In this document: positions 32,817-63,023 of the stretch, piece after piece
How positions within the stretch are numbered: the first letter of the stretch is position 1
Layout: each line of letters begins with the position of its first letter
Source of the DNA: Utricularia gibba
Taxonomy: Eukaryota; Streptophyta; Magnoliopsida; Lamiales; Lentibulariaceae
Assembly (NCBI GenBank): GCA_002189035.1
Contig: NEEC01000014.1
Coordinates: 932,501 to 996,500, forward strand
DNA length: 64,000 nucleotides
Direction of reading: 5' to 3'
Position numbers and translations under genes: made by a program
The notes under the pieces: model-generated
The model's database searches: none
What the model was told of the DNA's origin: nothing
What the model saw: only the letters and a program-made list of their open reading frames with translations

Positions 32817-34734
<1,918 letters not shown>

Positions 34735-35783: not shown

Positions 35784-37643
35784 TTAGTCTGCTGCAATTG
35801 GGAAGGCTGATCCCAATCTGTTTCCGAATCGGTAGCACTTGATGTTGACGCAGTAGGGGCCGAGTTCAAGGTAGTTGTCTTCCCCTCCCAGGTAGAAGCA
35901 GAGAGTGTACATGGCTATTTCGAACTCGGGGCTTACTCCAACGAGGGTGCTTGATACGGACTTGAGGACTCCGTTCCATCTGAACTGGACGGTCAGCAGC
36001 TGCGACTCTGAGTCCGGCTGCCAGAGATTGGACATTGGTTATGGAGGAAAACAGCAGAAGCTCTACAACATGAATCATATAGTTCATCATCCTTTCTACT
36101 TGGATCGTTTTAGTTTTCCACTCCTTGTGAATTATGAAGGATCAGGAAAAAAATGTTACCAGTTGGCGTTGCCTTCTGGGAAAAATGTAGCCTTGATAAT
36201 CCACTCTTCCTTTCGCCTCTTCAAGATAAAACTGTGAACAAAAAAGAATTAAACTTTCATACCATGATGTGAAAATAAAATTTGCTGATGAGGAAATGAA
36301 ATGAAGCTAGGACCTGAATCCAGTTATGAAAGCCTGTGACTTCTTGTTCTTCCCTTTGTTTGATTTCTCCAACAAACACATGTTCAAAAGCAGAAGAAGA
36401 ATGAGACGTACCACCACGGCCATAAAGATCGAACCAAAGGCTCATCAGCATGTTCTTAAAATCTCGAAAATTCTCAGGAGCTACACCCTTGGCCAGTAGA
36501 TACTTGTGGAGGTAGAGAATTGGTGCGGTTCTACTAATCTCTTCTATAAATGCTTCTTGTTCTTGCCTTTCTTCGCATGTCACGTTTTCTTTGTACCCTT
36601 CATGAGGATTATAATTGTCAAGAAGGGAGCAAAAACGGGAATAGGTCGGCCTCACGAGCACTTCTTCGCTCAGCCACGAAAAAAGGCTCCCTTGTGCCAT
36701 GTCTCCTGTTTGGTAAACCTTCTTCCCTTCACCGCAATCAATTTCATAATCTTTTCCAGGTGATAAACGGTTTAGATCGAGTTCCCATAATCTGTTCAAT
36801 GCCTTCAACAGATCTGCTAACTCGTCTTCTGAGGGTTCAATGTCGATGCCAGTTTCGATGCCACATGAGTAGTTTTGCTCATCAACAGGACGCTTGTACT
36901 GATCCCACTTGTGCTTATTCACCTAAAGCAGCATAGAGTTCAGTCATCTGAACATTCAAACTCAAAAGCAATGATAAAGCTAACAGATGAAAAGTGCAAG
37001 AGGCAGTCGATGGTAAGCAATGTAATGATTCTCAACCTTATGAGGCTTATGTGTAGCTGTTTCCCAGCCATCATTTTTTGTGTCATCATCCTCCTATCAC
37101 AACGAAAAACGAAATTCAGAACCCAGGGAATGTGAACCCATCATCACTCAAAAAGCATCAGTAATCATGATAAGTTTTTACACTTATAACTACCCAAAAA
37201 ACTGATCTTTCTTATCTCATCTGCAGCAACAGCAAAAGGGAACGGGCAAGGATACTCAGAATCTTCTCCTATTGCAGAAGATTCTGATCCTCAAAGTTCA
37301 CTATTGAGAAAGAACAATAGACCACCCTACACAAAATCACTTGCCACAAAGAATCTAAAAATCCACAGGAAAAGAGGATCTGATTCATGCCTTTATTCTG
37401 GTTCCATGAGAAATCTGGGAATCATGACGGGTCTCCGTATCCGCCGACACCACCTGCAACAAAGTTCAAAAAATCTGGAACAATCAATCACTGAAGTACC
37501 AAAATACTTGTGTTTGAGTAACCCAGAACCTCCGCCCACGTAGATCTGGATCGATGGTCGTCGCTATGACGTCGATCATCAGCATCGCCACCGCGAATGT
37601 GATCCAGAGCTACATTCACCAGTCCCTTCACCAGATCATCCAT
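35784..37643 (-). CDS. Poly(U)-specific endoribonuclease, XendoU family
   Basis: EndoU-type RNase; animal members cut at uridylates using manganese and process snoRNAs and other RNAs. Six exons in transcript order: 37530-37643, 37391-37453, 37037-37093, 36314-36922, 36160-36231, 35784-36017. They join in phase to 382 residues. The N-terminal part is acidic and polar and begins MDDLVKGLVNVALDHIRGGD. The catalytic domain carries FEHVFVGEIK and GFHNWIQ (two catalytic His), then FYLEEAKGRVDYQGYIFPRR and WNGVLKSVSSTLVG (catalytic Lys). It ends with the strand-rich SPEFEIAMYTLCFYLGG block. The second exon (VVSADTETRHDSQISHGTRI) is supported by WAE-VVS resembling family members I remember, but its donor would be GC; skipping it also keeps the frame and gives 361 residues. 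The gene starts only 262 bases downstream of the VPS13 stop codon on the same strand. Confidence 0.93.
37094..37390 (-). other. Candidate GC-AG intron (intron 2 of the XendoU-type gene)
   Basis: The 63-base exon 37391-37453 ends AAG followed by GCATGA, the same exon end and donor hexamer as in the methyltransferase gene. No in-phase GT donor follows before the stop. The alternative is that this exon is skipped. Confidence 0.55.
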
Positions 37644-37905: not shown

Positions 37906-40900
37906 TCACCGGAGACTGTCGACGATTCTTTTCGGCAGCCAATCGGATTCTTGTCGAGTTACTCGCAGAGCCACCAATGGAAGAGCATCACTGTTCGTTT
38001 GATAAACGTGGCACGACCAAGGGTAGGATTCAGGTGCGGTCCACATCTTCTGCTCCTCGAAGGTTGTTTCTTCAACAACAGATTCCGCAACGCAGTACAC
38101 GGTGTCCTTCTCCGGCTCTTCGAAGCCCGCCACGGCGACACATCCGAGCGAGACGTATCCCCGAGGAGCGCGGGGAAGCCATATGGACACCGGCGTCTTG
38201 TAGTCGTCTAAGCAGTTTCTCCAGACCTGAAAAGCATCATAACATTTAACAAGGCAGCACGAAAGAAGAAGCATGTGAATGATTCAGTGTGTTACCAGGT
38301 CATAGCTAATTGGCAAGGCGAAGATTTCGTCTGATAGGCGATAAACAGATGCGACATTTGGAGGATGGTTGCTAGCGCGAGCTATATCGCCGATGATAAC
38401 ATACCTGAAAGGCAGTGTACACATATGAGTACGAGGAAGACAATCTCCATTTCCAGGTGCTTGTTTGGAGAAAGAACGCCTCAGAGAAGTAAAGGAACAC
38501 ATCTCTTGATATAACAAAAAGGTGAAAAGGATGAGATACAAGATCTTACCCATCAGGGCAAACAGGTCGCCAAATGCTACAATATTCGTTGTTGTCCACG
38601 CTCTGCATACAAAAGACTGATGAAAAACCAAATCTTGGTAGCTGATCAAGGTAAAGTGTACGTGCCTGCTTTCTGCATAAGCTGCACCGGCTTTTTGTTT
38701 CTCGTTCACTGCTCCAGATTTTTGAGAAGTTGATGCAGTGTTCAGTGAATCTATGGTCAACAGAAGCAGATCCCGAGGAAGAAGGTCCTCTAGACCGCAC
38801 AATGGGTCCAAGGTATTTATGGTGATCCTTTGAATCATGCCGTCTTTTTCTCAAAGGATCCTGCAGGAATGTTGAAAAATCAATGTGACAAAACAACAGG
38901 CGCACGGCCAAAAGGGTGCAGTAACCTGGTGATCATCATCAAAATACCTGATGTCTCTCATGCTGATGTGCCTTCCAGGCCCTCCGCACAACAGCACGGA
39001 TTCTTAAGACCTGTGGCTCTGTTTCGTCTGGTGATTGCTCTGTATTGCACTTCAAAACCCGAACAAAGCTCTCACCTCTCTTGAAGCTTTTCAAATGGAT
39101 AATCAAATGACATGGGATGGCGTATCCAGCTTTGGCCGACTCCAGTGCCATAACCTCTTCCCATGGCACATCCCACATTATCTTGCAAGGTTTTTTGTCC
39201 ATCTGATGTGGGGCTACAATCTGTTTGTAAGGAAACCATTGAGAAAATAAGAGTCAAATATATTACGCAACAGAAGCCATTGGTGAAGAAAAAGTGATAA
39301 ATCCTACAGATGATTTACCTGCAAAAGCATCACTCGCTTGTTTGTGACTAAAACAATACGCTGATAAGGTACCATGAAGTGCTCCTCATAACAGTCTGAC
39401 CAAGCATATTTTGAAGGCTCCTTGAAAATGTCGGTACAACCAAAGTTTCGGCTTGTTTCAGCCAGGTACAATATCATCTGAAGATGGAAAAAAGACCAAT
39501 TTATTCAGTCACTAAAGGATTTCAGAGAAATGGCTTCTGCAATTTATATATAACAATAACACTAAACAAAAACAACCAAGCGACACAATAAGCAATGGCT
39601 ACCACTGGTTCACAAATTCAGAATTTGGGAAAAATGTGAGGCTAATAAATAGTGTAATGACAAATTTACCTGACCAAGTGCTTCTCTCTCTGAGTACTCC
39701 CTCAGTTTATTGTCAGCACGAAATGCCTTGGTATTCTTATACGATCAACCATTTTCTTATTACTGAGAACTTCTAGGCACCTCGTGCAACTTGCACCAAT
39801 ACCATCCACTGTCAGAGAGAAAAAGTCTAAAGCCCCGCTCATTGGCTGTACGAAAAATCCCAAAAAAGCTTGCCCAATTCCATGGGCAAGACCAAGAAGG
39901 CCATTTTCCCGAGCACTCTCAATAGGTTTCCTTACAACCCCAGAAACTCCAAAGGCGACACCTTGTGCTAGAGCTTCGGTTCCTTGAACAATTCCATCAC
40001 CAACACCTGTGATTCGTCTGGACCACACCTGCCCCACTACAGCGTCATTTTAAATTCGCTGTATGAGCACAAGGATAATAAAGTCTTACTTGTTTCGAAC
40101 GAAGATGAAGAAATTGTCCATCAGTGGAAAGCTGTGCAAAACCTTTGCTCAGAGAGGCTAAAGTGGAGCTTGTCATACCAAGCACATCAACGGAAGAAAT
40201 TAAATGCAAGGGGTTATGTATCAAGTCTCTCCAGATGCGGTTTCCAATTGCAGAAATCACAGAGCTCTTTCTGAGAAATCTGTCTTTGTGAGTTATTTTC
40301 CGGAGGTGAACCTGGTATGTAGGAATTAACTTAAACCTGGATGCTAATCTCCGAAAACAAAAAACTCAACAGCATAAGAATGAACTAGATATTCCATACA
40401 TAAGCAAGTAAATTTTACAAACCTGGAACTTAAATGCATTTCCAACTGCTGAAAGAACAGGACCCCACACACCAAGAAGCCCACGCGGTCGTAGAGCTGG
40501 TTCTGCCTCCAAAGAGACTTTGAATTTTACAGCGGAGAGGTCAATCAGGCTGACATAGTAGATTAGAATAATTAATACACTGACAAATGCCTTTTCTCCA
40601 TATATGCAAGAATAACGACAGAGCGACTATCTTGCAGATACATCAGCTAAAATGGAAAACAACTTATCCTAAAATGCATACATCCAGAAATTCTGCAACT
40701 ATCAGTACTGATGGGACCAGAAATAAAAAAGCGCCAAAAAAACAGCATTCAGGCATACATAACTGTTAACATGGAAAGTGGAATTTCATAATGGTATAAA
40801 ATTATAGATCTTCAGATGATGTTTTTCTAGGAAAATGCGAGAGAAAGAGGATCAGGAATTTAATATTAAGTCATCAAATACTCACTCCACTCGCATTTCA

Positions 40901-43900
40901 GGATCAACTTGAGTGACACTAGTATTTTGAGGAATGCGATCTAACTGAAGGTTATTGTAGAAGTCTACCAAAGCCCATATCACTGGCTCATGGATGTTAA
41001 GCCTCCAAACAGTATCAGTCACCTACAAATTGGAAAAAGAACAACGATGACATTCTCCTGCATGTCAAAAAGTGCAAAAACTGAGTTTTTTTTTTTTTTT
41101 TATGGCACAACCTTTATGTAAACATATGGGTAGATCTCTAGACCATCAGGGCTGTCGTTTCGTGCAGTTATGGTCATCTTGAACACTGAATTATTCACAT
41201 CTGGAACATGTTCAGGTGCAAGAAGCACAGGCATGACCGAAAGAGGAAGCTGATTATCCAGTTGCAAGTAACCAAGTATAAGTTTGAACCTGGAAAACCA
41301 GAATTTGCAGAGATATTATACACTCAATTTATCATGCAGTGAAGCATGAATGGAAGTACGAAAATGAATATTTATCAATAAAATGAAAAGAGCCAAAGGC
41401 TCTGCACGAAACTGAAACAAGTGGGCAGTGAGCATGCTGGCCCATAGACTATATACCGCTGAGCTAGCATTGGATTTTGGAAACTCATATGTGACTTGCT
41501 GCAACAAAAAAATATGCAAAAAAAAAAAAAAAAAAAAAAAAAAAACGAGTGTTGCATTAAAGGATATGTGATGAGATACCGAACCTGCTTGTTGTTCCCC
41601 CGTCATAGCCTGTTGAATAGGATATCAAGAATTTTTCCATGTACAAGTAGGAAACCTCTCGTGGTCTCTGATCCACAACAGATATGCCAACACTGCCCAG
41701 TTCAAATGTCACTTCGAGAGGAGACCCTTGCTCTGGAAAATTAGCCTGGGGATTTGAAGTTCTCGAGTTTCTAAGGATCAGTGGATACTGACTTACTTCT
41801 TCCCTGGAATATGCAGATGTATCTAAGAACCTAACAACCTTGAGGCCACCTACGTCAACAACATGGAGAGACAAGCCTGGGTAACTATCTACTGCAAAGA
41901 GCCCAGACTTATCCAAATCAAAATTGCACATTCTATTATAGGTGCCAGTATCAATCTCAGCATCGATAGTTTTTTGTCCATACGGATTCTCCCAGGAAAA
42001 GTTCTTCGTTGAAAGTGGAAGTAACTGAATCCACGAATCATCACCAAATCCAGATTGCCGAAATCTAATTTTATTATTTTTTGCCCTATTTTCAATCCTG
42101 AAAAAACAACAAAAGAAACTCAGCATCTTTTCAAACCAGCTTCTATAAATTATATAGGGTCTCTAAGAAAATGAGCATGGAGGGAAAAATGAGATTGGAG
42201 AACACCAAATATCCTACCATGCGGCACAAAGAAAGTAGGTTCACAACTAGTGCTCTCATGAAACAAACCTACCATCCTCACCCTAAAAGGCTGCAACAGA
42301 ATCCATTAGACTAGCGTAGTGAACACTTAAAAAATTCTTACCTAACAGGCCCCCTGGATGATCCAAGACGAAAAACAACTGTAAAGCGAGATCCCTCTTC
42401 ATAACCTCGAATTTCAGTACGTAAGAATCTCTGTGTACCATCATGTTCTCTCAAACTTAATATGATTGTATCCTCCTTCAGTATCTGAATTGGAAATGAC
42501 CAGTCTGTATCTAGCATCCGTACCTGTTGTAATCAATTAATGAAATCACTGTACGTAAACAATACTGCAAACATGAACGTCCATTAAAAATTATCATTAT
42601 CATGTGTAATGCCACAGTTCCAGCATTCAAGGTTTGAATATAAACTATGTGGCAAAATACTACACAAACATCAAGACCCACCTGAATATGATTAGGTTCA
42701 CCTGTTCCACGATGCACGAAGGACACTCTTGTGTCAAAAACCTGCAAACTCTTTGGTTCATCCCCGATCCCAAACATGATCAACATTCTCTGGCCAGCTC
42801 TATTTGTAAATGTCATGAATGGTCGAATGGAGATAATCTAACAGTTGCAACATATGTTAGATGCAGAAAAAGAAAACTGAATTTGGCTCCAGAATGATAA
42901 CATCACGCAGAATACAGGTACCTTTGTTGGGATAGATTGATAGGGACAAGGTTTTGAAGACACAAAGAGCTGCATGTAATTTCCTTCGGAATCATGAGCA
43001 TAAAGATCCAAAGAGCCATCCTAGAAAATGAGCGAAATGATGGCATAAACCATGTAGGAAAACGTTGGTTCCATTAAAATGTTCATAGTATTCCTAGACT
43101 GTACTAACTAATGATGTCAACGGAAATAGTCTTGGTCCTTCAAGAAATGAATTCTAAACATGTATAGCAAATGACAAAACTCATGTTATTTACCATGTCA
43201 CCAAGTGAAGAAAGGTCCGTCACTGGACCAAATTCTTTTCCTCCAGATTGCTCTATGGAAGCAGAGATACCCAGTGATTTGAAATTCAGCGCTGAAACAA
43301 CTGTACAGTTTTCATGCATCTCCTCCTCAGTGATTTCTTCATGGATATTTTCTTTGAGCCTCCTGGTCTTATAAGACAATGGATTCTTCTTCAACTTCTG
43401 AGCCCCAAAATCAATAAACCTAAGACTAAGAGGTGGACATCTTGCAATTGAAACCCAATAAGGTGAATATATTTTGATACTTAGGGGCTCCAGAGGCTTC
43501 CCTATGATGTGGTTATGTTCAACAATAATTTGCACGATCCTGCTTGCCATAAGTATCAAGCTGTCAAAATTGAAAACTAGAAAAGCAAGCTCGACCCAGA
43601 GTATTAAAACACAAACCTTCCAGAGACTGAGCTCCTTAAGCTGATTGTGTTTGATGTCATGTTGGAAGGATGAGACAGCAATACAGCTTCCTAGAAATAA
43701 CATCAAAACATAAAGACAAATTGATTAACTTAATAAGTAATCATTGCTTGAAAAGGGACTTCTGAAACTAACATGTACGGGTAGCCATCCTCCTTGAGAC
43801 AGCAGGGAGATGTATATAGGCTTTCTAATGTCAGAATTGTACACCTTTACACTCTCTCCAGGACCAAACACACCCCTGTAACAGCAAAGAAAACGCCCAC

Positions 43901-46900
43901 TATCCTGGATACCAAGGAGTGAAATTTCAGCCGCAAGAGGAAGATAGTTGGCAACTGATATAGGTGACCTGACAGAAATTGTCCAATCAAGTATTGGATT
44001 GGAGTGCACATCTTTGTAGATTTCAGTTCCTTGTACGTCCAAAAAAAACCATAAATCCTGTGAGCTACTAGATGAGCTCCCAGTCGTTTTGGAGCAACAT
44101 AAGAGATACACAGATTCTCTCAGACAGGAGACATAAACATCTGAAATTCCCTTTGACCCCTCCAACTCCTGAGAATGGTTAGTAGTATCCATAATGGAAC
44201 TCCATGCATACTCATTATTTTTTCCAACTTCCAAATTTGAAGGCCTTATATGGATCACATATAAGGAGGACTGGGAAAGGTAAGGCAAAGGAAGAGGAAC
44301 AGTTTCACCGGGATTTAGGGGTCCAATTATCAGAGGATCAACACCATGAAGTGCAACCTTCTTTTCCTTGGCATTTAATGCTTGTGTATCCGCACCTGCA
44401 CTCTTATGTTTGAGACATATTTCAATTGTACGGTCAGTGCTATTAAGAACAGATACTAGAGATCTGATATTGATATATCTATTCCCATCTATTACAGACA
44501 CCTCACTAGCAACAAAATCATTGCCCAATTTCCAACAGGCAGCAGGTGCACTATAATTTAATCTCAGCGTGGTCCATGGCCCCTGTCTGATTGGACTAAT
44601 TTGTATTAAACCAGTTCTTTTCAATCCATTAACAGATTCATCAACGTCTCCTGTAAAAGTCTTAGGAGGCAGGAGCACACGACATCTGATTCTACCACAT
44701 TTTGTACAATTTCCATCAACCTGCATTACAATGTAAAGCTAGAGCATCAAATAAAATGAGATTTGTTGTATTCAGTTTCAACAAGCAATGAATACTTTTT
44801 TTTTTCTAAATATGCTGCAGTTAACAATTAGTGCTGTTAAGGAATGGAATGGGAGCAGAGTGACTGATTAAATAAAAAAAAAAGACACAATAATGATCTG
44901 ATAAAATTCCTTGAAGTAAAAAAAAAAGACCAAAAAGGGAAGTGATGTAAAAGTCATAAAAAAACCTTAGATTCGCCATCTGTCAGCTCTAGCCACTTAA
45001 ATTCAGAAGTTTGGTCATCAAAAGTACTGTCCTGAGGAGCAACCAGGTTCATCAAAGAAGACGTACAGCTGCCCAGAGATTCACCTGAAAAATAACACGA
45101 GTAAATCTTATGAGAATCATGGCACTGTGAAATGGTATATCTAGAAAATTGGATTGCGTTTTTAATACAGATTAGACAACAAAGGAAACTGATATCCCTG
45201 TTGCACTTCCTATCAGGACATGGCCCATTCTGTTTAGGTGCAGTTTAGACTTCTAATTGGAAATGGTTCATTCTGTTTGGTTACAGTCAAAAAAGAAACA
45301 CATGCAAGTATGGATATACTATTTAGCAACTTGTAGCATGATTTCAAAATGCAGCTGAAATACCTCTCTCTGTGTCACTAAGTGTGAGCTCCAGCATACA
45401 GTTATCCTGATAAATAGAAAATTAACAGAAGCATGATGGGGGTGAATATCATAGGCTCAATGAGAATTCCAAGATCCATTCAGCATGCCATGAAAATTTT
45501 CGCAATATGAACAGTACTAAGAAAGATAGCTTGAGCTTGAAAGTACATGAAACTACATCATAGGAGTATATCTTATCATATCATAACAAAAAAATAACAG
45601 AGCAATGACAAAAAAAGCGATTCAAATAAGAACTGACCATTGAATTAACTCTGAAAAAAAACACTTCATTCCACATAATATATCCTACATCAGAAGACTC
45701 ACGGACACCTCGCTCAACCCCCCTAGTCCGTGCTCTTTGTTGACCAATTTGTGTTTGTATTGGGTGGTTATGATTTTCTAGAAGGCGCAACTGAACACTG
45801 TACTGATGAGAACACAGCCCCCCATTCTTCATAATCTGAGAATTCAACCATAAGATACAAATGCAGGATAAAAAAATAGTAAGATTCATGAACATGATCT
45901 GTTGTTTTATTTTCCATTTTAAATGTATGCAATCAAAGAACTGGTTATCACATCATCAACCTTATTAAAACATCAGTCATTCTCACCATTAGTTACATCT
46001 ATTAAGACGTTGAAGGAAATATTTTCAGCCATTTTCACACTAGAACAAAGAGCAAGGATTAAAAAAAAAAAACAATTAAAAACAATCGGAGAAAATGGAA
46101 AAACAAACCTCAGCATCAGCTACAATGACGGTCAACATAATTCGGTGTTTTGTACAAAGAGACCTTTTCAGATGAGAATCAGTCATGTTCCTCGAAAATG
46201 GAACTTTCAGTGCCTTTTTATCTCCAGGAGGCATTGCAATAGTCTGTGCAAAATCACTTACTCCAGAGGTCCGGACAAATATTTCCATCCCGAGCTTATT
46301 CTGAGGGATAATGTAATAGTTCTGCTTCTGGTGTACATGAGTTATAGATGTGCTATCATGAGCAGTCGGAGAATTCACCACTGGAAGAACCTAGACAAGA
46401 GTGTCCATGGTCAACAAGAAGTTGTAATCTTTGAAATCTTTCTCCATCATCAAGAAGTGAACTAGAAAGTATTAAATTTTACAATTCAAAGCATGGTACA
46501 CATACCTGGGTATTGCTAAGTTTATTCCAGCTCCTATATGCTTGTAAAACCATATTGACATTAGAAACAGAGACATTCATATTAAGATCTTTAGAAGTAG
46601 TTCGTATTTGAGAAGCTGCACCAGGGGCATTCGGATTATATTGATACCTATACAGAGAAAAAATAATGGAAAAGATAAATGATTGAAAAATACTGAGAAA
46701 GAAATTATTATCAAACTGCGAGTTTAATTCCACCAAGGCAGATTAACGAAAGCATGTGCTCAAAACTTGTTCTTCAGGCCTTGAGCAGGTTAGTGTTGAA
46801 ATACAGAATTAGTAACAAGTTCCTCGAGCTTATTCAAAGAAATTATGAGAAATTTCGTCCACACACGCAAACTTTTTTTTCTGGAATTTAATCTTTTTGA

Positions 46901-49900
46901 CATATATGAGGAACTGAACCAGACGACATCCAAGTCACAGCACAAGAATTTATTTGGTTATCTGATGCTCAAGAGAAACATTTAAAGGATTACCTCAAAG
47001 AGCCATCAACTGGTTCGACAAGAGGCTCCCATGAGTCATACTTGTCATTATAAGACATTGCAGCCAATGAGAAGTTTACACTGGAATGCATGCAGTCGGG
47101 TATTCCATGTAAGCTGAATCCAATACCACTCAAAGATACATTGCACAAAGGGATCATCTACACATTGAAGAATTATTTAACACAATTGCTCACAATGTAA
47201 TGTAATCAAGAAGAGCATCTAGAGCATTGTGTAGATGTGCTTGGTAAGTGAAACTTCTAAGCAATGGCAACTTGATAAAGAAGAACGAATGTGATGATTC
47301 TTAAAACTAAGCTATAAAAATCGTCAGGAAACTTCATTTGGTAAGTAGAAGCATTTCATCAGGGTTTCAGGGTGCGAGGTGCAATTTGATGAGTTTTGGC
47401 ACGAATGTCATCTTAAAGAGCGATAAATGAAATATTTGAAAATAAATTTGACATAAAAAATTACCAGGCCACCATAGTCATCAAAAAGTGCTGCAGAGAA
47501 AGTTCTAACTTCTGCATCAATCACAGTACTGTCTTCACCATTAGTTATGTCAGGACCACTAAGCTTCAAAGCAAACCTTCTGGAAGGTTTCTTAAAACCC
47601 TTCCAAACAATGAAGGTTCCATCCTCACTACCAACTCTCCAAATACTAAATGGTTCTCGGTTAAACACCAGGTCAGAAGAATCCCAAATACTTTCATCAG
47701 AATATTGATCCGAAGAGACCATGTCAGCACGAATGCATCTTAAAGAGCTGAAATCAGCTTGATTCGGAGTCCCTCTGCAAGCGATACATCCTAATGAAAC
47801 AAATCCTAGAGGAGCCTCAGGCCACCAAAATGAAATACTTTCCAGACCCCGTTGTTTCTTCAAAGAAGCAATATGCAGAAAATTAGAAGGGCTTTTATAC
47901 AGTTCACAGTCTTCTGAATCTTGAACAACAATACAATTATTTGGAGGTTCATACCTGCAAAAAGGTAAAACATACAGTGAAAGACATACGAACGTACTGC
48001 AAGATTCGAGTAACCAAAATAAGAAAACAAAGTAGATGGAGAATCTCATTTCCTACCCCAGGACCGCAATGTCACCAAAATACACCACTCCATCAGAAGT
48101 AACTGGACGCCATATTGATATCTTCTTTCGTGATCTGGAGCCCTGATTCCACCATATCAACCGGAAAGTAGCAACTGCTTCATACCTCCGTCTTGAGTTC
48201 ACCATGGACGACCTTTCAGATTGCACAGCATCATTGCCCATGGAAGCAGGAGATACATTGTCCGATCTTTGCAAGTGTTCAGGAGAATGGTGCCAGAAAT
48301 CAAGATAAAAATGTCTAATTTCATATGCTCTCCTAGTTAGATTTAAAGTTGCAGGATCAGCAGGGAGAAAAGTTCCAATAGCATTGTCTACCCGCCAAAA
48401 TGCCAAATTGGAATGTCTGGAAAGAAACAATTAAGAAATTAGAATAACTCAATAAAAATAAATGCAATAAAAGAACCAAGCAGAAAATCAAAACAAGGAA
48501 CAAACAACATTCATGTAACATCAAGCATCAGTACATGTGATACTGAAGGACGGCAGATAGAGAAAGATTTCATACTCAGAGCTGGCATCGATGCAGACAC
48601 AATCTCTCAGGCCACATGAGGAAACCAAAGATTCCAATATACAAAAGACAGAGGAAATTGGAGGCGGTGCCATCCCTGAAGATGTCACGCAACCCAAGGC
48701 CACATATCCATTTGGGGCTTCAGGGAACCAAACAGAGCAAATTGTATTTTCCACAGGGCTATGTTTTTCCAAACCACTATAAGCTATTTCATGAGTGAGG
48801 TTACTATTTGATGAAGAAGGCCAAACCAAGGTGAAGGATTTAGGTCTCTTAACTCTGATTAGCCTTGTGTTAACAGCAATTACACCCTTTGTTGGTGGTT
48901 TGTCACTATAAAAAAGAAAAAAAAGTTAAATTCAATGCCAGCCAAGAAGGAAAAAGAAGCAGGAGGGAACGGCAATGCATATACTGACACTGGTGTAAGA
49001 TAGTCACCAAGAATGGCAAAACCCATTGGTGCTCGAGGTCTCCAAAAACAGTATAATTGAGCATTTTGATTTTGACCTAAAAATAGAAATTGAAAAACCA
49101 TCGCATATGTAATTTGGGAAATCATACATCAAAATACGTAACAACGTTCAACATAATGTGCAGAACATAATATCACAAATTTACTCTTAATTGTCCCAAT
49201 TCGATCGAACTCTGAGCAAAGAGCAGTTGGCTTCGTTGATCTTGAACTCAAAAAGGACAGAATATCCTCTTCAACATCCAAAAATAATTTTAAAATACTG
49301 AACGAGAAATTCATGAATATATCTGAAGCTTTCAAGCATAGGCTTGTCTTCTTTGGTGTACTACAAAATTCCACAGAAGAATCAAAGGGCTCCAAAATTT
49401 TGATTCCACTGCTTTCCAGGGTCAAACCATCAGCCTTAGCACTCATTTGAATGGTATCACCATTCATAACAAGCCTGTGTGTTCATTCAAGCAGAAAGAC
49501 AGATTGTTAGATGAATGTTTCCCAGAATGTCGAATCATCATTAAACATTATAACCCACTAAAAGAATCACAATTTTCCATGGCTCTAGCATGTGAAACCT
49601 CTCAAAGCGTGGTATGAATGCTTAATCCCTTTAATCAGTGTATCAAATAAAGTTGCAAAGGGCAGTTCCCTTGACAGAATATGCAGTGCCTAGCACCTAA
49701 AATACAGTTTAAGTGGCATTCCGAGAAATTGCTGTGATTTATGCGTTATGCTACAGACTCAGAAACCTTAATTCAGCTTTAGCTGTTCTTAATCATTTGG
49801 TTGGGCTTGAGTTCCATGTTTTTTCCGTTTGCAACATTATAATACTAATTTACACCATTCAAAATTTTTTATAGCTGGGAGCAGAGCATTAAGTTCATGC

Positions 49901-52900
49901 CACATCAAAAACAATAAAACAGAAAACCAGGATATGGTATGTGTTTGAAAATTCACCTGCAAAATACATCCATTTGTGCATGTAACAATTTGTTAGAGAG
50001 AAGCTGAGGGGAGTTTCTTGATTTATTGTAGAAAGTAAACTCAGGACCGATAGCCTGCAGACAAGAACACAATTTATGAATCACAACAAGGACTTGCATC
50101 AATTTCAAAAATAAAGCGCTAGACACTAAAGGGGTTCAGTTTTAAAGTATGAAGTGAATTCAGTGTAACTCAAAGAGGATTCACTAGATATGATTTACAT
50201 GATGAAAAACCATACAGTATGGGTCATCATTTGGAGTGAGTGTACGAGCGCAGATGATCAGATCATATGAACAAGGAATGTGAAACATGCATATGAAGCA
50301 TTTTAAGGCAAAATTCAGTAGACTGCGTTAGAGACAAACCAATCATATAGTATATCCAAAAAACTAGAGTGGCACACCTGCATTTCAAAAACCAACTCTT
50401 TGGATGCACCAGGTGCAGCACCATGTGATGGCATTGCTGGATGGTCTGCAGAAGGTTGGTGCGAATTATTATTTTCTTCCTCCAGTATGACACTATCAAT
50501 CTGATTTGCCGAATAACTACTGTTCACTCCCAACAAAATGCTTGAGTCCAAGTACCTTCCACCCTGGAAAAATACATAAATGATAAAAGTTCTTGCATTG
50601 CTTACCATAAGTAAAGCCGAAAACAGTTCTAATCGTGCTTACCCTAACTATCACATTTCTGAACTGCAATTTTTTTGCATTCCCAACAAAAATTAAAGGT
50701 TCCTGACTTGGACCACTGAGAACTACTCCATGTCTATCTTTCAGAAACAAAGTTCCACCTCTTCCATCATATATAAAATTCTCAAACTTTTCATCATCGA
50801 CAACCAATGGATTTTGAGGTGAAATTGAGAATTCAGAAGATGGTTGAGAAAAAATTGACTGGTGAAGTATTATTGGGTCAAGAAAATGTGAAGAGTTTGA
50901 ATTCTCATCGTATAAAGGCTCAGCACGAATTGCTGGAACAAAAAACTCAGCAATGGCAAGCAAAAAATCCAGTGTGACAAGCATTTGTGGTCTCTGGATG
51001 CATAGAGATAGAGTTGTTGTATTTTCATTATAAGTGGCATCAAACATTACAACTGCTGGAGTGAATTGTCTATGCAAAGATTGGGAACTGGTGTACTCAT
51101 CCAAATCAAGTTTTCCAATGGCCAATCTAAGCTCCGTTTCAGTGCCCACACGATTATCGAGAACAATCAATTCCTTCAATGTAGATGATAGGAAACCTCC
51201 ACCCACTGTATTAGATTTATATGAAAGCCACAATCCAGACACCTGAATCATATACTCATGTTAAACCTACAATGCAATAGCCAAATAACACCACCAGGTA
51301 CTTAAACATATCATAAAGTTTCATAATGCATGTACAAAACTTCTCTAATAAACCCTAATTTGAAAGATCAGCAAAAATATATCTTGCAGTAAAGAAAAAT
51401 GCAAGATTACAAGATGGGCAGTAAATTCATTCTTCTCATACAAATGATATCATAAAATACGGTGTCTGGAACTAAGTGAAATAATGCAACCACACTAAGC
51501 AATGCCATCATATCAAAGGCATAGCTTCAATTCAAGGTTCGGTTGTATTGCTTAAATGTGTAAAGTGTAACGGGTAAGTAGAGGAACCACCTGGAGAGAA
51601 GCAAGAGAAGCATCCCTTGAATTGCCATAATGCAGAGAGAGTTCAATCGTATTAATGCTGACAGAAACCTTAGTTGCAATCCAAGATGGACTTTCTCTGG
51701 CCTCGGTTTCTGCATTATCTAAATCTCGTTTATTAACATTCAATGGGGAGTAGGATTCAACTTTTGGAGGAGTCATGATATTTGGAGTTTCTGATATATT
51801 ATCTTGAGCGCATTCAATTATTATTTCGTACTCCTTATTGGATAATGCTCCTTTTAGACCATCAATCTGAAAATAAAGCATATTAGAACACCCGAGTCAA
51901 AGCAAATTTCCACATTGTAAGTACCCAAATATAAAAGGGCAATGCAATGGAGGAATCAAAACACAAATAACTTATCCAAACGCAATGTTTGATAAAAGAT
52001 AAGCAAAACTTAGAAGTTCGAGAGAATACCATAATAGCAATTTCAATGTTTGGGCAATGATGGAACAAATCACGGAGGGTCCTCCTCATCAGAATGTTAA
52101 CACCCTTGACATCATGAATTATGCTTTCACTTAACTCAGAACCTGAACCAACATTTAATTTGATATCATCGACCTGAAAACAGTAACAAATGTTTTTAGA
52201 TGGAATGATGACAGCAAAGGGCAAGGAAGTTGATTTTTACGCCAACCATAAAATTCTAGGAGGGGGAACCTTTGATCTTGAGGATGTAAGGGAAAAACAT
52301 GGAAATAATGCATGGAAGAGCTGATGTAATGTGTTTTTATTCCCATCGTGTGTTAATGCATCAAAATCACATGGCGTCATTTGAACATCAAGGAAAACAA
52401 CTATTAGAAATCTCGCATTAACTTCTGATTAAAACAAAGAGCTATAACTATACCACAATTTTTGTCATTTCCATGTGTACTGCCTTGATTTCAGTTTTTC
52501 TTCCACCAATCCATCTGAATGTGTTCTCAACAGTTATTTGAACAACATCAAGCTTCAAGTAACTGCAAGACAATAGCATACAAGCATCAAGCTTAAAATA
52601 AAGGATTCAATAATCCTCAAGTTGCAGGTAGCTCTGCAAACTGCAAAACTCAGTCAAAATTTTACTCACTCCACACTATCTGTTCTCTTGGGCATTATTA
52701 TGATCGGATTCTTAAGCAAAATATCCAATTTCACAGCAGGTGATCCTTCAATCTCACTCTTTGAAAGCAATTTTTTTGCATTTGTCACTTGATCTCTTAT
52801 CTGGACAATCTCTTTAGAACTTCCGGGAACAAGGCCCATAAAGTAACTTGTAACCTACCTCAACAAGATTAGATTTCTGATTATAATCCATAATAGATGG

Positions 52901-55900
52901 TAAAGCAAAATAAGGTGCAATGTAGTTGACCTCCTGAAGAAAGCGGTTCAAATAGATGATCCGAACTTCTGACAGCTGCCCAGTGAGGCTGTAATCAAAA
53001 CTCTCATAGTCCTCATCATCAGTACTAAATGAACTGAACTCGACCTGGATTAGTTCCCAAAATGTTTTATCAAAAAAATGGCAAAAGATGTGCAGATGTC
53101 AATAAAAAACTTTAAAAATGGCAAGATATTACATTTCTATGCATCTCATTTCTGAAGCTGGTTCCAGTAGTACGTAGGATATGATAATATATAGTGAAGA
53201 AACTGTTATTCAAACACTTACAAGGGAACAGGGACTCCACAAGCACAAAATACCAGATAACTCTGCATTTTTCAGCCCCGTAGTTTACAAGTACAGTAGA
53301 AATTATATTACTCTAATTAGGTTGCTGAGACAAGAAAACGAGGTGGATACAGCATTCAGGCTCACTCGAACCCGAAGATGAATAAAGAGAACTAAACTAG
53401 GTCCCAGCCACACTGTGGCATGTGATTCATAAGGCCTCTTTATGAACACCTCCAGTGTTAATAATTGTAGTAAATAAAAAGTTTGACGACTAAAGAAATA
53501 GAGGATGGTGAGGTTTTTTCTCAAGGTTATTGGTAAGTTGACAGTTCAAACTACATTATTTAGCTCTACCAATGAGTTATCCTGAACAGATTTATCACAA
53601 TGAACCACATATGTACATTAACGCTATTTAATTATGAAAGTTGCAGGATAGTAAGGATCTAGGAACGTAGCAACAACTTTCAAAAAGCAATTAGCCGACT
53701 AAAAATTAACGTGATAAGAGAAATTGAACTTGCATGCATATTGAACAATCAGATTACCTCCACAAATGATTTTCCACCAGGGTTCCTCATGTCACAAGCC
53801 CAGAAGTACATGTGACTCATGTGAAGGCTATCATCGCTTATTTTAAGATTCCCCAGCGAAGCCTTTATGCTAAATGAAGCAGGAAAAACCTGTAAAATAA
53901 AAGTTGATAATAATAGAAATTTCATGTCACATCAAGCAGAATTTTTCCATAACCAATGTATGTAATATGGACCTTAATATCAGTGAGAAAATTATCTTGA
54001 GTCAAAGTGGCAAGTTTACTGTCATTTTCGGTCATCAGTAATATCTCAGCCCGAGTCATATCCAACTGCAGGCAAAAAACAACTCGGGATTTCCCCTTTC
54101 CCAGCAAAGATTGAACTACGGGCTCTTCAACTTCACTGGACACTGGACCAGAATTCTTCATACCCGTGGGAATGGGATGAGCTGCAGCAGCATCTGAAGA
54201 AACATCACTATGCACTTCATGGTTATCTTCCTGTAAATTTATGGCATTTGCAAACTCCATGATAGCAATAACTGTAGGCCTACGACAGTAGAAAGACAAG
54301 GTGGAGACTGTGATTGACACCTGAAATAGAAAAGATACTCATAAAAGGGCATTCAAATGCACAACAATTCGAAACAGAATTAGAGACTATCGCGTTACAT
54401 CAGATAACAACTAAAAACAACTTCATTTCAGATAAAGCACATGCCACATATCCAGTTTTTTGTCCAGTTCTGTTCAAGGACTACATGAAAGTCATCAGCG
54501 CATGCATATTCAGTAATTTCAAACCTTAATCAAATAACATACCACACACAACTACAGATCTTCTGCTTAGACAATTAGAGAGTGAAAATAATGAAATTGA
54601 AAAGCCCTGCCACGGACAAACCAGCTTATCAATATTGGAATAATGTGCCGAGTTCTGGTCAAGCATAACTATCTGAGCCTTCACGAAACTGTCTTCACTG
54701 CTATTACTCGGCTCACAAGATTCTATGTGATTAATGCTAAAAGGCAGCAAAGCAGCAGAGCGCGTAAAAACAGGGGCCTCCAAGTCAGTACTCTCATATG
54801 GGGAGATAAACCGAGAACTTGTAAGCTCCAATTCACGACCAGGTGACATTGTACTTGAAGTAGAATCATTCAGACTCTCAGATGCTTCATAAAACTCTTC
54901 ATCGCCTTCACTTTGCCTAAAGTCTCCCATGACTTGATCAAGACTGCCATTACTGTTTCTAAAAAGTGAGGGTGTCTCTGCACTCATGATGAATGATCTC
55001 GCTAGGTAACAAATCTTCAGCGAGTCTCTATTGCAGAACATATCTTCTATTTCCAGTGATTTAAGAACTGTGCCAATGAAAATATCATTTCCTCTAATTG
55101 AAAACTCAATCTGTAGGAAGAAAGGATGTTAAATTGTGAAGCAATAAAGCGCCAATAATAAAACAACAGATTAACTTACCTGACCACCTATAGCTCGAAA
55201 CTCCAGTAAGCTTTTCTCCTCAGCAAGAAGCAGCTTAGTAAAACTTTGATCGTGCTAGAAAATAAAAAAATAAATAAAATAAACATATATAGATAGCAGT
55301 GTTATATTCCTCCTCAAAACCTACTTACCAAACTCGAGTAACTAAAAGTTATCTTCAACTCATCAAGCACACCAGTCAGAAAGAACTTTTCAGATATTGA
55401 CAAATCATTTGAATCACGATTTCCAATTTCAGATTCCTCTGAATCCGATGTACTTTCCAGAAGTCCAACTATAGGGGCTGTTCCCTGCACACATTCAAGA
55501 ACTTTTCATGAGCCATGCATTCTTATACCTACAAGGTACTTGTGCAACAAAAAGAATTACACACAGAAGTGAAAAAATCTGATAGTATTAAGTGCTTCTA
55601 CTAAGGGCAACAATGATGCCAAGTATCTGATGATAGCGATATTCACTCAACCATTCTAACGAGCAGAAGCACTTCCTAAATTCAGCACAAGAATAACTAA
55701 AGCTTTTAGGTTTATCACTCATTATAACTAGACATAATCACAAGCATTTAAAAGCCGAGCTACCTTAAGGATATATGTAATATCTTTCTCATCATGCTGT
55801 TAACATGAAAAACAAATGTTAAATAATTAAAATAAATACCGATGCCCGATAGATGGCTCGTTGGATGTACATTTGCCATGTTTTCCTTGAGTTCTCTGAA

Positions 55901-58900
55901 TCACAACGCAAAATGAGAGCATTTGAATCTTCCAAAACCTATGGAGTTGAGATTCACCACAAAAAAGAACATAATTATTCAATGGGTAATGATCAAAGAG
56001 TAAACCAGGTGATCATAGCTTATTGTTTCTAAAATACCTTGCCAATGAGTTGCTCTGAATCAAAAACAGCAAATACATTCTCCACATTTCCAAAAATATC
56101 AGAAGGAAGTTGATGTAGCTGTTTACCTCTCAAGCTACCATTAAAAACATCATGTAACACAAGAATGAGAAGAATTTCTCAGAGTGAAATTCATTAAAAA
56201 TTTTATTTATCACACGAGACTCTGGGTTTAATGATGAATTGGGTTCTGAAGGAGTTTCAGAGCATATACACACATGCAACACAGAATTCCATAAGAAGAA
56301 GTGTGTGTTTGCACAGGATTAAGCAGCTTAGAACTTGAACTCTGAGTGAAATGGTGACCACTAATACCATGTTAGAAGAGAAATATCCCGAAGTTGAGAG
56401 GCCACTTGGAGAAGGAAATCTCCTAATAACACAAGTTAAGAAAACATGTGATCTTATACAAACCTGAAATAATGCTTATAACTTCTGGCCTCAGGGTTTT
56501 CTAGTAAATAGACAGAAGACCCAACTATGCACAAATATCTACGTTGCCATACAGCTTCTCTTCCTCCAACCCCCTGAAAGAAAAGAGAGCAAACTTTCGT
56601 TATGACTCAAAAAATGGGAAAAAAAAATTTCAGGTCATAGAATAATGGGAAAAAAAAATAAATAGATCAGCACCCTTCGGGTGAGATGATATAACCAATC
56701 AGCAAAATCAGGTTCATCCCAAGGCTGTGCGATATCTTGACGTTCAGCATTATTATCTTGAAAAAGCTTAGCTATTTGCATTAAACGATGATAACGAGAT
56801 GGGGAAAAAGAAAATCCCATTGAAGGCAATCGCATGGCCAGTCTTGTTGATGGCAGGTTTGGAGTTGGTGACCTAATCTGAGGACACCAAAAGAATACAT
56901 GAAATGGCCCATACAAACTCAAACCAACCAAGCAAATGAATGTTTCAATAAAAAAGAAGAGGAAATGGCAATCACCTGCTGAAGCTTTAGAAATACTCCA
57001 CATTTGTCAATAACAGGGAGAACATTCATAAAGTTGCACTTCGTTAAATCATGATCCCTAACCACATAATCTCGACTCCAACTATAATCACCATCAACCA
57101 GAAAAGCTGATACATCTCTTAACACCAGATTAAACTGGGTATACATATTCATCTCGTCAAGAGAAGCATATTCTGCAATGTCCTGAGTTTCACAAAATCA
57201 AATGTTAGTTATGATGAAAATATTTGTATTCAGATAGAAACTTAACCTGAGAAGATATTGCCAATTTCCCCAAGTCAATCAAAAGCTTGGTGGAATGGAC
57301 ACCATCTGGAGAAAACTCAGTGGGGATAGTAATTTTGGGTGCTGCTATATCCAGATCCAAGAGAAATCTGAACCAACACATAGTAACAATCAATCCATGC
57401 AGTTGGGAAATCCTAGAAAAATATTCATTATAGCTGGATAAGGATCGATAAGCACAGTGGCATGCAACATTTGGTTTGAATATTTGCTATCGTTCTTTCT
57501 GTCATACTGACGCAAAATTTAAAACCAACTAAAAGTTTTAGAAAGCAATGCTTGGGCATCTGCATCCCCAGGTTTCATAACTCCTATGCAACTTTTTACC
57601 ATTCGATGTTACAGGTTAGCAAGTTTCATGTAGTTCCACCTAACCCAGAGACGCATTCCAACACAGAAGCATTATTTCAATTTTTTTAATTGATCCAAAA
57701 AAAGGTGGACATGGCTTTCCACTTTATGGATAATTTACTCCATTCCATGTAAGGGATGCTCCTATTTCAAAGATCACTAGAAAACCTGGTTCGCTGTTTT
57801 AATGCTTTGTTCACTTGTCTGGCCGTTGTACGCTTAACCTCATCAAGTGTCATCTGTAGGAGAAGACATGAAATTAATTTCACGAAAAGATAGTTGAGAC
57901 ATTCAACAAATGATTCAAGGGCGAAAGGCAATTTGAATGGACAAAAATAGATAGCAGTTGTTCTTGTGTAAACAGTATTTTCTACAAGAGAAAGAGTCCA
58001 TGTATATAACAGAAACAGGGAAATGATTATGTGAATTTTTTTAGGGATTCTTCCATAAACCGTGGCAAAAATGCTGGGAATATAACTTTTTTTACAAACT
58101 GTAAAACAGCTAACTTTAAAAGAACTAGTAAAATGAAAGCTTGAATGAAAAAATAACTTCAAAGATAAACGGATATTAAACCTGAACTGCAGAAGCAGTC
58201 TCTCGAGCTAGTGTTTGACTAACAGTGGCACTGTTTTGAAAAAAGTCAATGATTGCATTGACACAATCCTTCAAATACTGTGAAGAAAGAAAATCCTCAG
58301 AACAATAAAAGCTGGAATCAAATTTGAGAACTCATTCTGAGGTATACTTACAGTCACATAACAAGGTGATGCCTTAGCAACAAGGCTCCAATCCACGTTT
58401 ACATCAAATGGCTTGTAGCAGAAGGCACCAACTAAGGAATCAGAAGCACTTCCACTCTGCACTTAAAGGCAAGATAAATCACTCGGCAACACTCACAACC
58501 AGACACATGCAATGTGATGCTTAAAGAGTATAAACAATTAAGAAAGACAAAAGAAGCGAAAAAATAAAGACTACTAGATGCCTTACCACAGCAAGAAGAC
58601 CATTTGGGGATCGTAATCTGTAGGAACCTAATCTTATCTCCACAACTTTGCTCTCGGAAAAAATCTTTATGGAACTTTCAAGATTATCACAAGACAATTC
58701 AGCTAGGCAAACATCTGCGTCAATTAGTTTTGAAGCATTATGCTTCATTCTAAGGTTCAACAAAATATTAGGAAGATCCCTGTTATTCTGGATCATAAGT
58801 TCTTCATGCCCCTTGTACCCAATGATATCATTCAATCTCTTCCAATCTTCCTCAGTTAGCGTGCCAGGTTCAGCATCCTCTGTGCTAGAATTATTGTTCC

Positions 58901-61900
58901 TTCACAAGAAACACAATTAGAAAGCTGCTCATCTAAAGAGGAGATGAGCAGTCAAGAGAAGGCAAATTTACCTTCCAAATAGCCACCATGATTTCTTAGA
59001 TTTTTGTTTTTTTAGGGATGACTCTGATCCTGTTGACTGCTCAACAAACTTATGGGCCATCATCCTGCTCAAAAGGAGTGATGTAATACAAAACTATCAG
59101 AATCCTAAAGGGCATAGATTTTTGAGCAGGGGTAAAATTTCAGCAAGCCTACAGGAGAACCTTCTACGAGGTAAGAAAAACCTTAAAATGCCATTGTATT
59201 GCATGCATGACACGAAGTGGAAATAACCTGAGGCTACTGTTCTATAGAAATAAATTATAAAAAGAAGACAGAACCGATGATCTTCTATGAACAAGCACTT
59301 CTGACTCCTCAGCGATTAATCATGCTCCATGCATGTGTTCGCTAAGCATTTAAAAGTAAAAATGAAAGGAGTCACGTAGTAATATACACCTCCATTGAAG
59401 AATAACTTCAGCATCTAGTTCAAGATCAATTTCCTCTATCTCTTTGTTGTCATCAACTATGGCACGCTCACCATCGGACATGAGAAGTGATGCATATAGT
59501 GAGATATACTTCTTGCGCAATCTTGCATGTCGCAAAACTTGTTCCCATGACAATTTTCCTCTAGTAGTAAGCAACAGCGAATTAGAAACTAACAAAAATG
59601 CATACTATATAAAACCATAAATAGACAACAGAACAAATCAAACTAAGAAGATAAATTTCATAACTCCAAAAGGCAATTCTTGCTGACTTTAAGACTCTTT
59701 GAAATTAAAAAGGAGAAATAAGGAGGTTTTCCAATCAAAATGTATTTCCCAATCATCTTGCTATACTGCATCACAACACAGAGTTTTCCAAAATTTAAAT
59801 AAAAATATTTAGGGAACCTGGCCTTCTTCATTTGGTCTGAAACAGCTCTATAAGCATATTTCCACCAAGACAGTGGATTATCATTAACCGAAACATGTGG
59901 GCGATAGTGCACATATTTTACTTTCAGATTGAAGGATGCAAAGTTATCAGCTAACTTTAACAAATCCCGATAACCATCCTGATCAAAATACAAGGAATAT
60001 CACGAAACCATCGTTTAACAAGAGTGAAGACAAGCAAGGAGCCAGGCAAACCTTGGACAGACACAGAACTACATCATCAAGATTAACTGAAGCTTGCTGC
60101 AAGGGTTGACCTTTCATTCCAGAACTAATATGGCGATCTTTGAAATACTTAGCACTTCCACTCACTGGTTGTAAAACATAGGAGTGCTGACCAGTTTTAA
60201 TAACCTCTGGTCTCCCATTTCTTGTGCCAAACTTAAAAATCTGAAGCTCATAAATTTGGTTGAGGATACAATATCAGTAAATCGACACAATGAACAAAAA
60301 GACTGAAAAACTGAAAAAAAAACCTGTTCCCATTCAGACGGTAGCAAATCCTCCCACGGCTTTATGCTGTGCCATGGTGTGATGTCAGAATCCAAATATA
60401 CAGCCATGCGCTCCAGCTCCACAGACTAAAAATTATGGATTCAAAAAAAAATTAAATAAATAGATAAATAGATGACATCAAAGAAATGGACCATCATAGC
60501 ACACAGCATGTGGTATTTTATCACGACATTCTATGGTTTCCGTGACAAATATTAAGAGTGTGCCTTGTAAAGACCTGGATCCTCTTCTCCACAATTTTCC
60601 TAAGATTTGCTTCTACATTATGCTTCACTAAAACATTGACATGTTGAATACCAGTTACACCAAAATAAGGACCAGCAATCAATCAGGTCTGGAACTGAAA
60701 TGCTAAGGAAAGATTGCATCAGGGATTAGTGTTTAAACCTTCTGAGTTTTCTCCAATGCACCTTCAGTAATAAAAGTTTCCTCTCCATTGTCATCAATTG
60801 TGAATGCTGATAGCTTATCTAAAGTCACTCCTGCTGCAAAAGGATGTCCTGGATTACTGGATTCCAACGAGACAAGTCAAGGCATTGAGCATATACGGAA
60901 TAAAAAGAAGAAAGAATAAATGCAAAGAGAGGATATGAATATGGATATATGAACGGTACATACCTCTCAAGATCTTCATACCGGATATGAATATTTGATA
61001 TTGAAAGCTTCAAATTCCCGATCACTGTACCAATTAAAGATCCAAGCCACGACTTATCCTTGAAGAAAAGAAGAAAATGTAAATTAAAGACCAATATACA
61101 CAGGAATCTTTGATCCAGCGCAACTCAAGTTATGGAACCGTTTCAATCAATGGAGATAGCTTTTCTACAACATCTCAGAGTTCAAGACATACCATTTCAT
61201 TTTTAAGCATTTGGCGACTCTCCAACAGCTTCATTTCCATTTCCTGTTCAGAGAATCAGAAATTCTTTCATTGTACATAGCCTAGATGTTAGATGAATGC
61301 TGCGACATCCAAATGGGTAGAATAATATACCCTTATCTGAGTCCTTTTAGCTTCTCGGACAGCATCCTCACTAGACCCCTCGACCACTGTTGCAGGCTCA
61401 GCCAGTACATATATTCTGTCCAGGGAAACAAGGACCGGATCATGCCCAAGTCTGCTCCATGGGACCTGTACTCATGACAGCATAATTACCGTGGCTAAAC
61501 AAGGAAGATAATATAATCCTCCAGGAAAAAGAGAGAATCATAACATGCATATCAAGTTGTAAATGCACATCCCATGAAAAAGCAGACTCAAACCAGTTTT
61601 CCTTGAGCTTTAAAAACCAAACTTCCAATAATGATGGCATGAAACAAACACGTGCATCACTTTTAAACCAAAGTAGCCAAAAGTAAACATGAAACGTGGA
61701 GGGATGGGGTCAATGTTGCATAAAAATATAAGCAGGGCATCCAATCCGTATAGAAAACAAATTTTGAACTCCAAACGAGTACCCTGCATCGAATTTACAA
61801 ATTCTTATATGGAAACAGGAATAAAATTTCTGCCAACGAGACACACACATTCCAAAAAAGGAACATACGGAACCACAAACCTTAAGTCGAATGGATCCAA

Positions 61901-62359
61901 GAAACCCAGCTTTAACTCTAACAGGCAACTTCAAGGCGTTAAGTGCCTCGGGTTTCAGTTGCATGTTCGTTAGTTCTACATCGCCTGTTGAATAAACTCA
62001 GTAAGTAGGCACAATGTTGTCAAAAGAAAGACTCAAAACAACTCAACATCTCCAAATGCTCATAACTATGCTCATAAAAAAATGCAGATTCTAAAAACAA
62101 GTTGACGGCGATCATATTATTTAAGCAACATCATATCAGTTTAAATACTAAAAAACGTGACTTTTAGCAATTCGGTACATCATTCCTTACTTGAAACTGT
62201 TCAACTGGAGCATGATAAGTTTCGAACACAAATAAGGAGACCAAATAAGAAACATGGGTTACCTTGCCAAACACTTATCTTGAGTGCTTCTTTATTAAGC
62301 CCCCGAACATAATTCCCCAAGTATCTTTGCAACAGAAACGCAACTTGGTCCTCCAACAT
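37906..62359 (-). CDS. VPS13-type bridge-like lipid transfer protein with PH domain (apparent frameshift)
   Basis: Giant rod-shaped lipid-transfer protein acting at membrane contact sites. I followed about 63 exons in frame, roughly 4,200 residues (estimated). Exon 1 (62263-62359) starts MLEDQVAFLLQRYLGNYVRG and exon 2 (61881-61984) reads NMQLKPEALNALKLPVRVKA: the chorein/VPS13_N domain. Exons 56464-56573, 56038-56134 and 55840-55938 form a pleckstrin-homology domain (WQRRYLCIVGSSVYLLENPE to SRKTWQMYIQRAIYR), typical of the plant VPS13M group. A C2-like and hydrophilic region follows. Vps62/DUF946-type repeats lie around 47466-49090 (IWRPVTSDGVVYFGDIAVLG, FWWPEAPLGFVSLGCIACRG). The SHR-BD/adaptor-binding domain includes exon 43773-44720. 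The conserved C-terminal exon is 39670-40028, followed by 39319-39477, 38948-39220, 38666-38860, 38550-38602, 38296-38404 and 37906-38226. Exon 39670-40028 is one base short of the expected frame. An optional 33-base exon lies at 55764-55796. Confidence 0.94.
38603..38665 (-). other. Candidate GC-AG intron near the VPS13 3' end
   Basis: Exon 38666-38860 ends RCSLCRKQ with CAG followed by GCACGT, and the next exon starts after TATGCAG with SVDNNEYCSIWRPVCPDG. Both sides match the homologous region (CTLC.KQ...CSIWRPVCPDG) and keep phase 0. The nearby GT gives the wrong phase. Confidence 0.75.
39670..40028 (-). other. VPS13 exon with an apparent 1-base deletion
   Basis: The exon enters in phase 0 (VWSRRITGVGDGIV) and should leave in phase 0, because the next exon begins MILYLAETSRNFGCT, but it is 359 bases long. 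The reading frame is clear up to DRIRIPR. After that the conserved continuation AFRADNKLREYSEREALGQ is in the next frame. One G is missing (one C on the + strand) at the CC pair 39726-39727. Read as given, the protein stops at 39702. Confidence 0.85.
41518..41545. repeat. 28-base poly-A tract in a VPS13 intron
   Basis: Uninterrupted A run in the intron just after the exon covering 41588-42100. It reads as T in the transcript and lies near the splice donor side of the intron. Confidence 0.9.
55764..55796 (-). other. Possible 33-base optional exon of VPS13
   Basis: Between the PH-domain exon 55840-55938 and exon 55329-55484, a segment flanked by AACAG and GTAGCT reads HDEKDITYILK in phase 0. 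Both inclusion and exclusion keep the frame. Homologues I remember run directly from YRAS to G.AP, so it may be alternative or not used. Confidence 0.35.
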
Positions 62360-63023
62360 CTTCACAAAATCCTCGAAAAAACCCTCAAGAATGGGCGACT
62401 AAAAGAGTCCCGCTCATATACATGGCGTGTGATGAAATGGCCAAAAAAGACTTAACATCCAAAGATCAAGAATTACACAGTAGAATCTAGAAGTTTGACA
62501 TCATGCTAGGTAAGTGAACGCAACACGTTTTCCAGTATTCGGACACGTGTTCTTCCCCAACGGCCCAATCGAGGGAGGGAGGAGGCTGATCATCACCATT
62601 TTCACACGAACACACCCAGGTCTCCTCGCTAACCGAATCGTAACCGTTCACGTGGCGACAAGGTCCAGGTACGCATTGGGCCCACGGTACTAAATTAGAA
62701 TAAACGTAATGTTTACGGGGTACAAAATGCCAATATCAGAAGTTCCAGGGGATAAAACTCATATCTGCAAACCAAATGGACCGAATTGAAAATACCTCTA
62801 AATTTTAAAAGGAGCTTGAAGAAAAATGCATCAATATATTTCATAATTTTAATAGCTATATAAAATAAATATCATTTAAATTTTTATTTTTATCAAAAAA
62901 AAAAAAAAAATACTTACGAATAAAAAAAAAACAATCTGTTGGTTGAATGGATGCAAACGTCACATTTCATAAGCACTATTCTTACACACAAGCTGCCGCT
63001 ACACATCTCTGGTTCATGGGCTC
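62360..63023. promoter_or_regulatory. VPS13 promoter and 3' UTR of the right-hand gene
   Basis: 664 bases between the VPS13 start codon and the stop codon of the next - strand gene. The half next to VPS13 contains two CACGTG boxes. 62810-62940 is AT-rich with A runs and probably belongs to the 3' UTR or terminator region of the right-hand gene. Confidence 0.6.
62544..62654. promoter_or_regulatory. Pair of G-boxes (CACGTG) upstream of VPS13
   Basis: CACGTG at 62544-62549 and again at 62649-62654, about 185 and 290 bases upstream of the VPS13 ATG. G-boxes bind bHLH and bZIP factors such as PIF, HY5 and ABF types. Function here is inferred from position only. Confidence 0.5.

Follow-up and report, generated by a model that had tools for sequence, protein, structure and literature searches.

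The window analyzed here is a stretch of 64,000 nucleotides from Utricularia gibba, and the main feature considered is a coding region on its minus strand with an approximate extent, according to an exon model, of 37909..62389. The gene, named VPS13 in the preliminary description, is, from the similarity of its predicted protein, a land-plant member of this family of giant genes for lipid transfer. More specifically, the N-terminal part of the exon that is the subject of this report matches PDB sequences of human VPS13C (E 2.6e-09) and VPS13A (E 9.9e-09), another exon of the same gene (43728..44720, minus strand) encodes the VPS13 adaptor-binding (VAB) domain (PF25036, E 4.4e-08), and the last exon (37909..38226, minus strand) encodes a Vps62-like block (PF06101, E 3.2e-07). 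The splice-aware exon model comprises 12.6 kb of coding sequence in 61 exons, and the exons near 62.4 kb are plausible in this model as the N-terminal part of VPS13 (putative chorein region). The C2 domain marks the VPS13a subtype in Arabidopsis (PMC11712023); the sole exon tried for this domain (45835..45638) gave no Pfam match.

Downstream of VPS13, and likewise on the minus strand, are genes for a beta-amylase (GH14; called from a scan of exon 33644..32823 alone) and an XendoU-type endoribonuclease, at 32823-34764 and 36260-36922 of the window. An AT-rich element of about 200-220 bp at 35007-35230, with ends TGTGTTTGGTA and TACCAAACACA, is present in at least 39 copies of 72-85% identity on many contigs. 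These copies often adjoin TTA/TAA, and by its sequence features the element looks like a Tourist-type MITE.

The preliminary description claimed a single-base frameshift in one conserved exon of VPS13, and this claim holds to the base. The exon (39670..40028, minus strand) is flanked by canonical AG and GT dinucleotides and has phase 0 at both ends. Its acceptor side reads ...gtagtggggcag followed by GTGTGG as the first exonic bases, and its donor side reads ...CTTGGTCAG followed by intronic gtaaat. Between these splice sites 359 nt were measured where 360 are needed, a length of 2 mod 3 that is one base short of whole codons. The upstream exon (40090..40311, minus strand, 222 nt) enters in phase 0, and the 5' part of the broken exon, VWSRRITGVGDGIVQG...DRIRIPR, is read in the frame inherited from it, while the 3' part, FRADNKLREYSEREALGQ, is in the frame passed to the next exon. 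These two conserved frames meet at 39726..39727, where the minus strand reads GG (CC on the plus strand); this is the CC pair after DRIRIPR at which the break had been placed. When read from its 5' side the exon yields ...KKMVDRIRIPRHFVLTIN and then a stop: seven off-frame residues (HFVLTIN) follow the break, and translation ends at a premature TGA at 39702..39704 (minus strand), which is the protein end originally proposed.

The coding sequence beyond this stop is intact and conserved, also as described. The next exon (39319..39477, minus strand, 159 nt), the probable start of the VPS13_C / PH-like region, is open and begins in phase 0 at M-I-L-Y; its match to the VPS13_C model (PF25037) is near-threshold, scoring 20.7 bits where the cut-off is 21. 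The exon at 38948..39220 (minus strand, 273 nt) is open, and the last exon is open to the natural stop. Summed over the exon translations, the C-terminal loss amounts to about 386 codons, all still open and recognizable and including the Vps62-like block, which compares with the loss of about 390 residues first suggested. The statement that the other exons keep phase agrees with the exon model, in which no frameshift was needed elsewhere in VPS13, although the model is not fully sensitive. This home-made model, built with a frameshift penalty, dodged the true break by a splice detour and called zero frameshifts, and its verdict on the other exons therefore carries little weight.

When the genome was searched for another copy or haplotype of the broken exon, only the locus itself was returned, and the exon is thus single-copy at the DNA level. 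Diverged VPS13 paralogs (35% identity) on three other contigs, C304, C451 and C66, hold one frame across the equivalent of the break (...RRRLPRAISGDHLLRPYDE...). The paralog copy on C66 and C451 (L007/L008) is ~97% identical to that on C304 (L006). It is without the codons that follow LRPYDE (WKAQGQ in C304), and both of its versions break at the same spot; it is possibly a pseudogene of recent origin. In the paralog exon around GVLGFWASLMTALGN, C66 and C304 have GGGCAAGC and C451 has GGTAAGC, through a 1-bp loss and a C-to-T change that together make a donor-like GTAAGC out of coding sequence.

Rescue of the reading frame by splicing or by ribosomal frameshifting is poorly supported. Splice sites that would restore the frame were listed, as were slippery sites, and none was accepted, given weak donors, lost residues and the lack of a usable heptamer. 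Alternative splicing, through a donor at 39719 or an exitron at 39802..39690, is very unlikely to restore the frame. In-frame options exist on paper, the donor at 39719 (TTC followed by GTGCTG) dropping 17 codons, but this donor scores -3.75, whereas 39 reference donors of VPS13 score 0.54 to 7.06 and the annotated donor 5.74, and exitrons in the exon would need weak sites and would remove conserved residues. Programmed -1 ribosomal frameshifting could in principle repair a single missing base with a -1 slip; however, in a scan of the exon, the interval from the break to the stop contained no slippery heptamer. In-frame hits were limited to TTTTTTG at 39867 and TTTGGGA at 39864, about 140 nt upstream of the break, where a slip would ruin a conserved part of the exon. 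To our knowledge VPS13 does not use ribosomal frameshifting, and the chance that it crosses the break in this way is close to nil.

The assembly searched contains 100.09 Mb in 516 contigs, one of 6,822,880 bases. Two papers (PMC5793159, PMC8333044) describe the U. gibba genome as ca. 100 Mb in size and as having passed through two recent whole-genome duplications; its assembly, made with HGAP from PacBio reads at 88x, has an N50 of 3.4 Mb and includes a Unitig_8 of 6.8 Mb. We infer that the assembly analyzed is this PacBio/HGAP one. Single-base deletions are expected to persist in a consensus of that age built from PacBio reads only. Long-read errors are described in PMC12007338 as a source of frameshifts and premature stops.

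The frequency of comparable breaks elsewhere in the assembly was gauged from adjacent same-strand HMM matches without room for an intron, tabulated for HSP70, trehalose-phosphate synthase (TPS) and ketoacyl-CoA synthase (KCS), and also found in glucosyltransferases (UDPGT). Across about 76 kb of matched sequence in HSP70, TPS and KCS, 12 distinct breaks were counted, and the UDPGT genes added 2; contig C241 duplicates C304 and was counted once. The PRP8 family, with too little sequence recovered, is outside this count. In 14 of 14 breaks the shift was 2 mod 3, as one missing base would give, and the opposite sign was found in none (0/14). Both halves were stop-free in 8 of the 12 breaks in HSP70, TPS and KCS. 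With about 73 kb as the base, these 8 clean events correspond to roughly one per 9 kb, and all 12 to one per 6 kb. The clean events alone would predict about 1.4 breaks, that is one or two, in the 12.6 kb of VPS13 coding sequence, which has one. Some of the 14, namely those with internal stops, may be real pseudogenes.

Base-level alignment covered two otherwise well-conserved HSP70 genes (on C451 and C496) that appear in the family table as overlapping matches whose frames differ; the TPS, KCS and UDPGT breaks are known from HMM matches. Each of the two, aligned with an intact HSP70 over about 1.7 kb, has one 1-nt deletion in a conserved coding part. A shift of 2 mod 3 is also compatible with two extra bases, but single missing bases are preferred, since single losses are what is seen both in the HSP70 alignments and between the duplicate contigs. 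Regarding the latter, the small contigs C66 and C241 repeat sequence found in C451 near 3.41 Mb and in C304 near 2.236 Mb, respectively; their sequences suggest redundant or haplotype contigs, which may serve as a gauge of assembly error. Over 13.46 kb of the same locus, C66 (44 kb) and C451 differ by 14 substitutions and 18 indels, 15 of them of 1 bp. In natural polymorphism, substitutions normally far outnumber indels. With the third, 97%-identical copy on C304 as arbiter, private 1-bp indels were found in both C66 and C451, and the 1-nt losses private to C451 include CCC to CC. Nonetheless, C66 and C451 could in part be true haplotypes.

The suggestion that the break is either an error or a very recent allele is supported, with the assembly-wide evidence strongly on the side of error. 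If the deletion of 1 bp were instead real and recent, whether fixed or heterozygous in the clone that was sequenced, the allele would truncate VPS13 ahead of its C-terminal PH-like and Vps62-like part. The base is indeed absent from the assembled sequence and no second copy contradicts this. Moreover, a VPS13a-type gene in Arabidopsis is important mainly in pollen (PMC11712023), and a largely clonal plant might tolerate the loss of such a gene. However, the exon model, with its limited sensitivity, reveals no further disabling change across the roughly 12.6 kb that are coding, the codons downstream remain open, and breaks that look identical are frequent enough genome-wide for one to be predicted here by error. 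Such an allele is therefore improbable. Slightly less probable still is the reading that, in the carnivorous and mainly clonal U. gibba, the sole VPS13a/b-type gene has very recently acquired a truncating allele; if so, this species would be beginning to lose a lipid bridge of pollen germination. Because a lone disabling change is expected under error and allele alike, it is the prior from the assembly error rate that decides.

Thus, the break is very likely a residual single-base deletion in the long-read assembly consensus, since similar one-base losses occur every 6-9 kb in other conserved genes; it is real in the sequence file and probably not in the plant. The excess of one-base-missing shifts and the indel-rich differences between duplicate contigs strongly favor error, and the single-copy locus and the open, conserved downstream exons are in keeping with it, while the run of just three bases, not a long homopolymer, counts against it. 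The plant's real exon would be one base longer and would lead in frame into the intact downstream exons, and reads over 39715-39735 would carry the extra base. The VPS13 frame break is an ordinary finding. Breaks of this kind every 6-9 kb of coding sequence are a warning for users of the assembly, and claims of gene loss based on a single frameshift therefore require read support.

Among known systems, the gene is comparable by domain content to AtVPS13a (At1g48090) and AtVPS13b (At4g17140) (PMC11712023), which are also very long multi-exon genes that encode a VAB domain and, towards the C-terminus, Vps62-like blocks and VPS13_C, the last being a near-threshold match here; it differs from them in that exon 40028..39670 is, as assembled, one base short. 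With plant pseudogenes and recent null alleles it shares a premature stop that truncates the protein. Pseudogenes are marked by several disabling changes or relaxed constraint, whereas this gene has a single break by the exon model, within the limited sensitivity of that model, and preserves the downstream coding frame. It also resembles the residual single-base indels of long-read assemblies that mimic frameshifts, as treated in PMC12007338: one base is missing in isolation from an otherwise intact and conserved exon, and breaks of the same sign recur in unrelated genes of the Utricularia assembly, at a rate that predicts one here.
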